Assembly (NCBI GenBank): GCA_902765855.1
Contig: CACXBF010000001.1
Location: 253,117 to 317,116, forward strand
Reading direction: 5' to 3'
Length of the DNA: 64,000 nt
DNA from: an uncultured Ruminococcus sp.
GTDB lineage: Bacteria > Bacillota > Clostridia > Oscillospirales > Acutalibacteraceae
Part shown: in pieces, positions 25,807 to 28,340 of the stretch
How positions within the stretch are numbered: position 1 is the first letter of the stretch
Layout: each line of letters starts with the position of its first letter
Notes under the pieces: model-generated
The model's database searches: none
The model's input: only the letters and a program-made list of their open reading frames with translations
Told to the model about the DNA's origin: nothing
Program-made: the position numbers and the translations under genes

Positions 25807-25882
25807 TGGAGCGGATGACGAGGCTCGAACTCGCTACCTCCACCTTGGCAAGGTGGCGCTCTACCGGATGAGCTACATCCGC
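25807..25882 (-). tRNA. tRNA-Gly (anticodon GCC)
   Basis: The minus strand folds as a full cloverleaf. The acceptor stem is GCGGATG / CATCCGC, the anticodon stem CCACC / GGTGG with loop TTGCCAA (anticodon GCC), and the T loop GTTCGAG. The CCA end is encoded (TCCA). It has its own consensus promoter and terminator, so it is a single-gene unit. Confidence 0.97.
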
Positions 25883-26094: not shown

Positions 26095-26556
26095 ATGAAA
26101 ACTATTGCAAGCTTTACTATTAACCACGATTTACTTGATGTCGGTATGTATACATCTCGTGTTGACGGCGATGTTGTAACCTATGATGTAAGAATGAAAA
26201 AACCAAATGCAGGAGAATACCTTGAGGATAGCGGTTTGCATACTTTTGAGCATCTTTTTGCAACCTTTGCAAGAAATTCTGAATATTCAGATAGTGTTGT
26301 TTATGTAGGTCCTATGGGTTGCCGTACAGGATTTTATTTTCTTGTAAGAGATAGCATATCTCCGGAAAAGGCTATTAAGATAGTATATGATGCTTTTTGT
26401 TTTATATCAGATTTTGAGGGAACTATCCCTGGCAGTGAACGCAAAGAATGTGGAAATTATGTAGCCCACGATTTAGTTGCCGCAAAGAAGTATGCCAAAG
26501 ATATGTTGCCTATTTTAAGGGATTGGACAGTTGAAAAATTGGTTTATCCGAAGTAA
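26095..26556 (+). CDS. luxS: S-ribosylhomocysteine lyase LuxS
   Basis: LuxS splits S-ribosylhomocysteine into homocysteine and the AI-2 precursor. The 153-residue length is normal. The metal ligands are H49 and H53 in HTFEH and C119 in KECGN, and the catalytic cysteine is C76 in GPMGCRTGFY. GAGGAG lies upstream of the ATG. The homocysteine it releases is also the product of the sulfhydrylase encoded next, so the two neighbours both feed methionine synthesis, although the perfect promoter between them indicates separate control. Confidence 0.97.
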   Translation: MKTIASFTINHDLLDVGMYTSRVDGDVVTYDVRMKKPNAGEYLEDSGLHTFEHLFATFARNSEYSDSVVYVGPMGCRTGFYFLVRDSISPEKAIKIVYDAFCFISDFEGTIPGSERKECGNYVAHDLVAAKKYAKDMLPILRDWTVEKLVYPK

Positions 26557-26565
26557 ACCTAAAAA

Positions 26566-26592
26566 CCTATAAAATTTATAGGAAATATTTTT
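26566..26592 (+). terminator. Weak terminator-like hairpin after luxS
   Basis: CCTATA and TATAGG flank an A/T loop, followed by AAATATTTTT. The stem is AT-rich and weak. Confidence 0.4.
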
Positions 26593-26601
26593 GAAAAAGC
26601 C

Positions 26602-26630
26602 TTGACAAGCGAAAGGGATTAGTGTATAAT
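26602..26630 (+). promoter_or_regulatory. Consensus promoter of the leader ORF and metY
   Basis: TTGACA (26602-26607), a 17-base spacer and TATAAT (26625-26630) match the vegetative consensus exactly. The transcript would start near 26637, some 38 bases before the leader ORF. Confidence 0.88.
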
Positions 26631-26674
26631 TCAAAACATAGCAATCCGATATGAATTGTGGAAGGTGATTGATT

Positions 26675-26737
26675 ATGAAAATCAGTAAGTATTTTAAACC
26701 CTATAAATCACGCACAGAACGAATGTGCTGTTGCTGA
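26675..26737 (+). CDS. Polycysteine leader peptide (20 residues)
   Basis: The ORF starts with ATG 6 bases after AAGGTGA and encodes a basic peptide whose last residues are Arg-Met-Cys-Cys-Cys (codons TGC TGT TGC). Three stop codons in a row follow in frame (TGA TAG TAA). It lies between a perfect promoter and a sulfur-assimilation gene, which is the arrangement of a regulatory leader. A ribosome short of charged Cys-tRNA would stall just before the stops. Polycysteine leaders of this kind are known in mycobacteria; I see no classical terminator hairpin between this ORF and the gene, so control would be by coupling or message decay. It is too short for standard gene calling. Confidence 0.65.
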   Translation: MKISKYFKPYKSRTERMCCC

Positions 26738-26808
26738 TAGTAAAATCTGAACACAATAAATTTTGATTATAAATGAATTATACTGAATAAATGAAAGAGG
26801 TAATAATA

Positions 26809-28113
26809 ATGAGCGAACTTAAAGAAAGAAATTTAAAATTTGAAACACTTCAACTTCATGTTGGTCAAGAACAAGCTGACCCTGTAACAGACGCAAGAGC
26901 AGTTCCGATATATGCTTCAACTTCATATGTTTTCCATAACTCACAGCATGCCGCAGATAGATTTGCGCTTAAAGACGCAGGTAATATTTATGGCAGACTT
27001 ACAAACCCAACACAAGATGTTTTTGAGCAGAGAATTGCAGCTCTTGAGGGTGGCGTAGCAGCTCTTGCAGTAGCAAGCGGTGCAGCAGCCGTAACATATA
27101 CAATCCAAAACCTCGCAGGTGCAGGCGATCACATTGTTGCCGCAAAAACAATCTATGGCGGTTCTTACAATCTTCTTGAGCATACACTTCCAACATATGG
27201 CATTAAGACAACTTTTGTAGACCCTGACGAAGAGGGTGCGTTTGAAAATGCTATTCAGGATAACACAAAGGCTATCTATATTGAATCCCTCGGCAATCCG
27301 AACTCTAACATCATAGACATAGAAAAGGTTGCGGCAATCGCACACGCACATAAGATTCCGCTTGTTGTCGATAGCACATTCGCAACACCATATCTTTTAA
27401 GACCTATCGAGCATGGTGCAGATATTGTTGTTCATTCAGCAACAAAGTTCATCGGTGGTCATGGTACAGCAATCGGCGGTGTTATCGTTGATAGTGGTAA
27501 GTTCGATTGGGAAGCAAGTGGAAAATTCCCATCACTTGTAGAGCCAAACCCAAGCTACCACGGTGTAAGTTTCACAAAGGCAGCTGGACCAGCAGCATTT
27601 GTTACAAAGATTCGTGCAATCTTGCTTCGTGATACTGGTGCAACAATTTCTCCTTTCCACGCATTTATCTTCCTTCAAGGTCTTGAAACACTCTCACTCC
27701 GTGTAGAGCGTCATGTTGAAAATGCGCTTAAGGTTGTAGATTTCCTCAAAAATCACCCACAGGTTGAAAGAGTTAATCACCCGTCACTCCCAGAGAGCGG
27801 TTATAAGGACCTTTACGATAAGTACTTCCCGAAGGGTGCTGGTTCTATCTTCACATTTGAGATTAAGGGTACATCTGAGGACGCACAAAAGTTCATTGAT
27901 AATCTCAAGGTATTCTCACTTCTTGCAAATGTTGCCGATGTTAAATCTCTTGCAATCCACCCAGCAACAACAACACATTCACAGCTCAACGAAGAAGAGC
28001 TTGCAGAGCAGGGCATTAAGCCAAACACAATCAGACTGTCAATCGGTACAGAGCATATTGATGATATTATCTTTGACCTTGAAGAAGCATTTAAGGCAGT
28101 TGCAAATAAATAA
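26809..28113 (+). CDS. metY: O-acetylhomoserine sulfhydrylase (MetY type)
   Basis: The 434-residue PLP enzyme joins O-acetylhomoserine with sulfide to give homocysteine. It has the Cys/Met metabolism family features: FETLQLHVGQEQADP at the start, YGRLTNPTQDVFEQR, and the PLP lysine K213 in VHSATKFIGGHGTAIGG. The long form of about 430 residues fits MetY rather than the shorter MetB/MetC. The ATG at 26809 is used, with AAAGAGG 9 bases upstream; an ATG 18 bases earlier precedes that site. The polycysteine leader lies 71 bases upstream in the same transcript. Confidence 0.92.
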   Translation: MSELKERNLKFETLQLHVGQEQADPVTDARAVPIYASTSYVFHNSQHAADRFALKDAGNIYGRLTNPTQDVFEQRIAALEGGVAALAVASGAAAVTYTIQNLAGAGDHIVAAKTIYGGSYNLLEHTLPTYGIKTTFVDPDEEGAFENAIQDNTKAIYIESLGNPNSNIIDIEKVAAIAHAHKIPLVVDSTFATPYLLRPIEHGADIVVHSATKFIGGHGTAIGGVIVDSGKFDWEASGKFPSLVEPNPSYHGVSFTKAAGPAAFVTKIRAILLRDTGATISPFHAFIFLQGLETLSLRVERHVENALKVVDFLKNHPQVERVNHPSLPESGYKDLYDKYFPKGAGSIFTFEIKGTSEDAQKFIDNLKVFSLLANVADVKSLAIHPATTTHSQLNEEELAEQGIKPNTIRLSIGTEHIDDIIFDLEEAFKAVANK

Positions 28114-28302: not shown

Positions 28303-28340
28303 AAGTCCTTGCATCAAAATTCGATGCAAGGGCTTTTACT
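28303..28340 (+). terminator. Terminator before purL
   Basis: TCCTTGCATC and GATGCAAGGG form a stem with loop AAAATTC, followed by CTTTTACTTTT. Confidence 0.75.

Follow-up and report, generated by a model that had tools for sequence, protein, structure and literature searches.

A conserved leader ORF with a CGA-AUG core upstream of metY in Ruminococcus and other Clostridia, and its possible role as a ribosome-based sensor

The closest described systems are the ribosome-mediated transcription attenuators of the trp, his and ilv type and the translational attenuators of the ermC type. Like the first, the locus reported here has a short open reading frame (ORF) led by a Shine-Dalgarno (SD) sequence, with end-product codons, before a biosynthetic gene, and its relatives of a second class have complementary arms at a fixed distance. 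It differs from them in having one Met codon only, preceded by a fixed CGA, with optional Cys codons and no run of one codon, and in lacking a terminator in the copy analysed. As in the ermC type, the coding part of the leader pairs in relatives with the SD of the gene that follows, and a ribosome pausing at the core would mask it; the cause proposed here is amino-acid shortage and not a macrolide, and such an arrangement was not predicted for the copy analysed. In Clostridia, methionine supply is usually controlled by T-boxes and riboswitches.

Leaders with Cys runs and without terminators were predicted in Actinobacteria (PMC1262725), and mycobacterial polycysteine leaders have been described (Canestrari 2020, as cited in PMC9094748 and PMC13236596). 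As far as the available text of these sources goes, the likeness lies in a short ORF, Cys codons near the stop, sulfur genes and no obvious terminator. In the present case the Cys run drifts whereas CGA-AUG is fixed, an SD and a 5′ UTR are present, and the targets are metY and metQ-like genes. The uORFC-8-2 motif before cysS in Rhodobacterales (PMC8632094) is likewise an upstream ORF (uORF) with Cys codons and an attenuation layout; unlike the present leader, it has two tandem Cys codons and its own terminator and belongs to another phylum, and the available part of that paper does not mention a CGA-AUG core. His leader peptides were reported in Bacilli by PMC2965389, according to the accessible part of which, ermC aside, none had been known before outside Proteobacteria and Actinobacteria. 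A literature search, limited to titles and the openings of abstracts, returned no metY leader or CGA-AUG leader by name, which is no proof of absence from print.

Layout of the metY locus

The window is the whole stretch of 64 000 nt that was analysed. The features of the metY unit were located as follows.

26566..26582, no strand assigned: perfect palindrome CCTATAAAATTTATAGG, about 20 nt 5′ of the −35 box
26602..26630, plus strand: consensus sigma-70-type promoter TTGACA-17-TATAAT, 12/12 consensus matches
26660..26667, plus strand: leader SD GGAAGGTG, 7 nt 5′ of the ATG at 26675
26675..26737, plus strand: leader ORF MKISKYFKPYKSRTERMCCC with stop, 20 codons; identical peptide in genome G084, related peptide in genome G150
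26720..26728, plus strand: CGA-AUG-UGC (Arg-Met-Cys), conserved core and proposed ribosome pause site
26729..26734, plus strand: UGU UGC, two more Cys codons, the variable part, lost in G150
26735..26743, plus strand: TGA TAG TAA, three in-frame stops
26738..26808, plus strand: gap of 71 nt between leader and metY, without plus-strand terminator or significant fold
26793..26801, plus strand: metY SD GAAAGAGGT; its pairing with the window's leader is weak
26809..28113, plus strand: metY, O-acetylhomoserine/O-acetylserine sulfhydrylase, 434 aa (TIGR01326, E 6e-194; PF01053)

The −35 hexamer TTGACA (26602-26607) is separated by a 17-nt spacer from the −10 hexamer TATAAT, which ends at 26630, and both hexamers are retained in G084 and G150. 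If transcription starts 7 nt past the −10 box, the leader would have a 5′ UTR of about 38 nt; having an SD, the ORF is not leaderless when compared with the mycobacterial polycysteine type. Its codons include one internal Met and three Cys, the latter forming a run near the stop, and its peptide was assigned to no known protein family by NCBIfam and Pfam. As an SD-led leader ORF upstream of an amino-acid gene it would be expected to be translated. The product of metY, read from the ATG at 26809, was identified as O-acetylhomoserine aminocarboxypropyltransferase/cysteine synthase (TIGR01326, 644.5 bits for a cut-off of 495.1).

In a preliminary description of this DNA, a promoter, an SD, a 20-codon ORF, three stops and metY 71 nt further on had been noted, and all were confirmed, as was its remark that the gap holds no classical terminator hairpin: no terminator-like site was found between leader and metY on the plus strand of the window. 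Alternative antiterminator and terminator hairpins were absent from the window locus. The leader RNA folded no better than its own shuffles (z 0.62). The Rfam scan of the window returned one tRNA and no other element, with no match to a T-box or SAM riboswitch.

Conservation of CGA-AUG among metY leaders

Homologues of metY were collected from a family sample (E 1e-200; 91 of 250 genomes, 93 places, upstream DNA used at 70), an order sample (E 1e-180; 98 of 245 genomes, 99 places, 66 used) and a phylum sample (E 1e-180; 38 of 299 genomes, 39 places, 29 used). Two order loci that failed the metY frame check (L221 and L268) were kept in the counts. A strict SD-led uORF with CGA-AUG was found at 59 of the 70 metY loci in the same family (shuffle expectation 1.05), at 41 of 66 in the same order (1.95 in shuffles) and at 8 of 29 farther out in the phylum (0.60 in shuffles); 11, 25 and 21 loci, respectively, were without one. 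When any of the five other Arg codons was placed before AUG in the same test, 0 to 3 loci were obtained for each. An unbiased count of 8-mers gave CGAATGTG upstream of metY in 45/70 family loci (0.4 expected) and 31/66 order loci (0.35 expected); it was present in 5/29 loci of the phylum sample and was not among the 14 commonest 8-mers there. Of 116 CGAATG sites, 96 shared their frame with an SD-led ATG, whereas each of the two other frames had such an ATG for 2.

Judged by sequence comparison, the CGA-AUG leader ORF upstream of metY is not a product of chance, and its conservation before metY across the family and the order extends to the ORF as such, to its frame and to its CGA and Met codons. 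Common descent may account for part of this conservation. The earlier proposal of a conserved regulatory leader ORF before a sulfur amino-acid gene is upheld, and the frame test makes its translation very probable; the leader of the window, too, is very probably translated. The preliminary description had named a shortage of Met as an alternative to one of Cys, and this was well placed. The Met codon is fixed across relatives. Exact conservation of nucleotides would also be seen if CGAAUG(UG) were an RNA or DNA site for a protein or a small RNA and the ORF incidental. This is extremely unlikely in view of the frame preference just given and of the variable distance from core to metY; moreover, sequence complementary to the core extends in the gap over 4.34 nt, just slightly more than the 3.89 nt of shuffles.

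Many metY relatives have a short upstream ORF with R-M-C close to its end. One family locus, that of G029, departs from the CGA rule, the codons in its short ORF being CGG-AUG-UGU. The leader peptide is identical in G084, of the window's genus, while metY there differs at 49 synonymous codons and 1 other of 430. In G150, of the same genus, the leader keeps S-R-x-E-R(CGA)-M-C and has MCGSRC in place of MCCC. Conservation at the peptide level is shared by the window leader within its genus only.

RMCxC sites elsewhere in the window's own genome were also inspected (seven found), which left the leader of metY: L098, L100, L102 and L104 are out of frame within longer ORFs, L101 is in frame in a 353-codon ORF, and L103 (S-M-C-G-C) belongs to a 74-codon frame. 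The pattern RNCGAATGTGH has 26 sites in this genome, 24 of them under stop-to-stop frames of at least 657 nt; the others are L357 (89-codon frame) and the metY leader. A one-mismatch match in G135 (L009) was discarded as lying inside a long ORF.

At the 108 strict-uORF loci, the codon after CGA-AUG was Cys (UGC or UGU) in 56, UGA in 22 and another in 30, and there are other leaders that end in R-M-stop. Two or more Cys in the last 12 residues of the upstream ORF were counted at 34/70 family loci, for 15% in shuffles and 17/70 on the reverse strand, a signal that, at the level of sequence, is far weaker than that of CGA-AUG. As a conserved element, poly-Cys was rejected: Cys codons are not conserved in relatives. 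The preliminary description had rested its weight on the polycysteine run and proposed that conservation of the ORF and its Cys codons be checked in relatives; the ORF came through this check and the run did not. A pure polycysteine leader, in which the three terminal Cys codons sense the charging of Cys-tRNA and Arg-Met is incidental, is quite unlikely. It would agree with Cys being the commonest residue coded after CGA-AUG, and with the clustering of Cys codons just before CGA-AUG in many leaders of the second class described below. The run, however, is lost within the genus, and CGA-AUG is retained where UGA comes next or, without exact CGAATGTG, UAC (Tyr), AGC (Ser), CGC (Arg), CAG (Gln), UUG (Leu) or CCG (Pro). 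The fixed part of the leader family is Arg (CGA) and then Met, often followed by Cys or UGA.

The peptide pattern NFRxGRMC[RC]C was searched in one genome per species (84 980 species), and 114 stretches were found. Among the 80 of these whose titles were listed, the names were Clostridia, Ruminococcus, Oscillospiraceae and the like, with one Prevotella, which was taken as a labelling error. In 113 the match is read in frame, MENYFEKLVRANFRFGRMCRC being one such ORF; the single out-of-frame match, L163, was excluded from the codon counts. Downstream, a metY homologue was identified by blastp in 94 (L163 included) and a MetQ-like lipoprotein in 12, while CysK, MetF (409 nt away), an Rrf2 regulator and a nitroreductase-like protein occurred once each and 4 were left without a call. 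For all 12 MetQ-like targets the MetQ/NlpA models came out on top, with scores under the curated cut-offs. A second search, in 394 genomes of the same order, gave 64 places in 61 genomes (2 matches for the reversed pattern). Of 30 loci read, 29 stand before metY, L327 being the remaining one; among five further places, L415 and L416 precede metY and L412-L414 precede MetQ-like genes, one of which is followed by a gene for a MetN-like ATPase (models under cut-offs). With metY and MetQ-like genes dominating downstream, these leaders chiefly target methionine genes.

The Arg codon before Met was CGA in all 113 in-frame NFRxGRMC loci, the search pattern having permitted all six Arg codons, and all six were used for the Arg three codons before it. 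Among the Arg codons of 603 ORFs at these loci, CGA accounts for 7.1%, and in the window for 5.9%. This codon is read by I:A wobble. Matches to tRNAs in the window's own genome numbered 41, with the Arg anticodons ACG, CCG, TCT and CCT; a TCG anticodon was found in none of the Arg tRNAs read there (one weak match was not called). That CGA is poorly read is indicated by Salmonella his-leader data, in the available part of PMC4046918. The idea that CGA-AUG is an avoided dicodon was rejected, 20 occurrences being seen in ordinary genes for 16.0 expected; since it is not avoided there, it is not strongly harmful by itself.

A master set of 165 loci, 155 of them unique, was assembled; loci were excluded if they had no exact CGAATGTG within 260 nt of the metY start or if no start was found. 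An unlikely explanation of the leader is nascent-chain arrest, by which F-x-x-L-[LV]-R-x-N-F-R-x-G-R-M would bind the exit tunnel and stall on a small molecule (Met, SAM or Cys) as TnaC and SpeFL do. Conservation of the nascent chain at the amino-acid level was indeed seen in the NFRxGRM leaders: beyond the search pattern, R(−2) was kept in 110 of the 113 loci with six synonymous codons in use, V/L/I(−3) in 110, L(−4) in 85 and F(−7) in 85. The best-scored start codon lies exactly 16 codons before CGA in 105/155 loci. Against arrest, other leaders, that of the window included, share little past R-M (LNRMCG, ISRMCM, RRYCRM), NFR is partly explained by pairing with the SD, and an arrest peptide has no need for one synonymous codon. 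The conservation of amino acids in NFR leaders leaves room for a contribution of the nascent chain.

Leader-SD pairing and terminator-type arms

The SD of metY was analysed in 154 and 145 loci of the 155-locus master set, and duplex and swap tests were made on 103 representatives. The duplex of the leader (−48 to +18 of CGA) with the metY SD was −11.78 kcal/mol for cognate and −9.78 kcal/mol for swapped partners (z −9.1, n=103), while four control duplexes (the leader against two stretches of metY coding sequence, the 5′ UTR against the SD, the leader against the gap) gave z of −1.3 to +1.0. By group, z for cognate pairing was −6.4 in NFRFG, −2.8 in other NFR, −3.6 in non-NFR and −4.4 in UGA leaders. 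The Asn codon of NFR covaried with the SD: AAT occurred with GGAAAT in 38 loci and with GGAAGT in 1, AAC with GGAAAT in 3 and with GGAAGT in 7, after 63 of 112 NFR loci carrying neither GGAAAT nor GGAAGT had been set aside. The same four counts in 23 representatives were 17, 1, 1 and 4 (Fisher p 0.003).

Opening of the SD was predicted to cost 6.30 kcal/mol in 74 NFRFG loci; shuffling the leader lowered this to 3.93, and masking CGA-AUG with a ribosome to 3.49. Outside NFRFG the effect was small (mean z about 0.6; 30 NFRNG and 41 other loci), and overall the opening energy exceeded that of the locus's own shuffles in 102/145 loci. In the window, the metY SD was predicted to be open with or without the leader, the cost of opening being 1.73 kcal/mol, and 2.40 kcal/mol with shuffled leaders; in G084 and G150 it was likewise not above their own shuffles. 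The window leader-SD duplex (−5.3) is among the weakest, and 88 of the 103 leaders pair better with the window SD. Sequestration of the SD by the leader was found for the relatives as a set and not for the window.

Terminator-type arms were analysed in 16 loci. L273 (no core) and L048 (no convincing arms) were dropped, and 14 metY leaders were kept as a second class (L069, L072, L074, L079, L086, L096, L246, L247, L249, L253, L255, L268, L307 and L231). These have an ORF with R(CGA)-M, a CYCGG arm, a complementary later arm and often a T-run. In all 14, C[C/T]CGG begins 13 nt downstream of the C of CGA. The first arm, mostly CUCCCGGGC, can pair with a later GCCCGGGAG, forming at least 9 pairs when the best 10-13 nt of each are taken, and changed pairs between the two arms occur in L231, L096 and L307. 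For the later arm, a CCCCGG-like stretch further on offers an alternative partner; behind this third arm, a T-run of at least 5 is present in 9/14 (missing in L086, L096, L246, L249 and L253). By usual ribosome footprint distances, a pause at the Cys codons before CGA, or at CGA itself, would best leave the first arm free. A riboswitch or T-box was rejected, the Rfam search having given no match at gathering score in the window or in 16 scanned loci of both classes, ten of the second class among them.

It had been suggested that the mechanism would not be standard attenuation. This fits the window and does not extend to some of its relatives, which show SD sequestration or terminator arms. The want of a switch structure in the window would suit a constitutive uORF, tuning metY translation by re-initiation or by an open 5′ end without sensing any amino acid; with CGA-AUG conserved, and switch structures present in relatives, such a function is very unlikely.

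Proposed mechanism and surroundings of the metY unit

The leaders probably form a family of leader-peptide attenuators, in which a ribosome at in-frame CGA-AUG, with UGY (Cys) or UGA often coming next, is the sensor and one sensor serves two outputs. The ribosome would be slowed at CGA, which is read by inosine wobble alone, and entry of Met-tRNA at AUG, then of Cys-tRNA at UGY, would become rate-limiting when these are scarce; the species sensed would be the tRNA of Met, of Cys or of both. A ribosome paused there would, in many relatives, mask the part of the leader that is otherwise paired with the SD of metY, and shortage would thus switch metY translation on. In the second class the ribosome would sit just before the first, antiterminator arm, and transcription would continue.

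In the window copy the sensor is intact, and the models predict neither closure of the SD nor a terminator. This lack of a predicted output is the main result against the attenuator reading; a single Met codon is also few for a classical attenuator, and the loci without a strict uORF, CGG in G029, the small SD effect outside NFRFG, the T-runs missing from 5 second-class loci and the lack of avoidance of CGA-AUG in ordinary genes weigh against it too. For the window, the output might lie in occlusion of the SD that is weak or escapes the models, in a Rho site kept out of reach, or in a 5′ end shielded from decay. A more specific proposal is given even chances: that this is a new class of leader, in which Met, with Cys as second input, is measured at a single Met codon sensitised by an obligatory I:A-decoded CGA, and which can be coupled to SD sequestration or to a terminator, one output being exchangeable for the other, before metY and metQ in many families of Clostridia. 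If true, a synonymous codon fixed beside a single Met would be a natural regulatory use of decoding geometry (the inosine-adenosine wobble), and methionine supply in Clostridia would be subject to leader-peptide control. It also suggests that one sensor has been coupled to two different outputs among related genomes.

Upstream of the promoter, the palindrome CCTATAAAATTTATAGG resembles an operator of the Rrf2/CymR type and is a candidate repressor site; from this resemblance, a second, transcriptional control of metY through a putative operator may exist. (CC)TATTGACA is common to relatives, TATTGACA being present in 21/70 family metY loci (0.35 expected). CCTATTGACA is also common to relatives at the palindrome site upstream of the metY promoter, and metY paralogues in G000 (L018) and G150 (L017) carry CCTATTGA...AAGTAGGTTATAAT. 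One NFRxGRMC leader (L162) lies about 240 nt before a gene for an Rrf2-type regulator (IscR/CymR models below cut-offs) and might provide a link to a regulator of the same genes.

The gene luxS (S-ribosylhomocysteine lyase, 26095-26556) is directly 5′ of the metY unit, so that homocysteine recycling and synthesis stand side by side. Upstream of luxS, a tRNA-Gly (GCC) gene was located on the minus strand at 25810-25882 by Rfam and ARAGORN. A purL-type gene follows metY, and between the two a terminator-like hairpin at 28303-28335 was matched on both strands. Finally, the stretch after the −10 box (26632-26657, CAAAACATAGCAATCC-ATATGAATT) differs by one base between G000 and G150, despite the drifted leader ORF.
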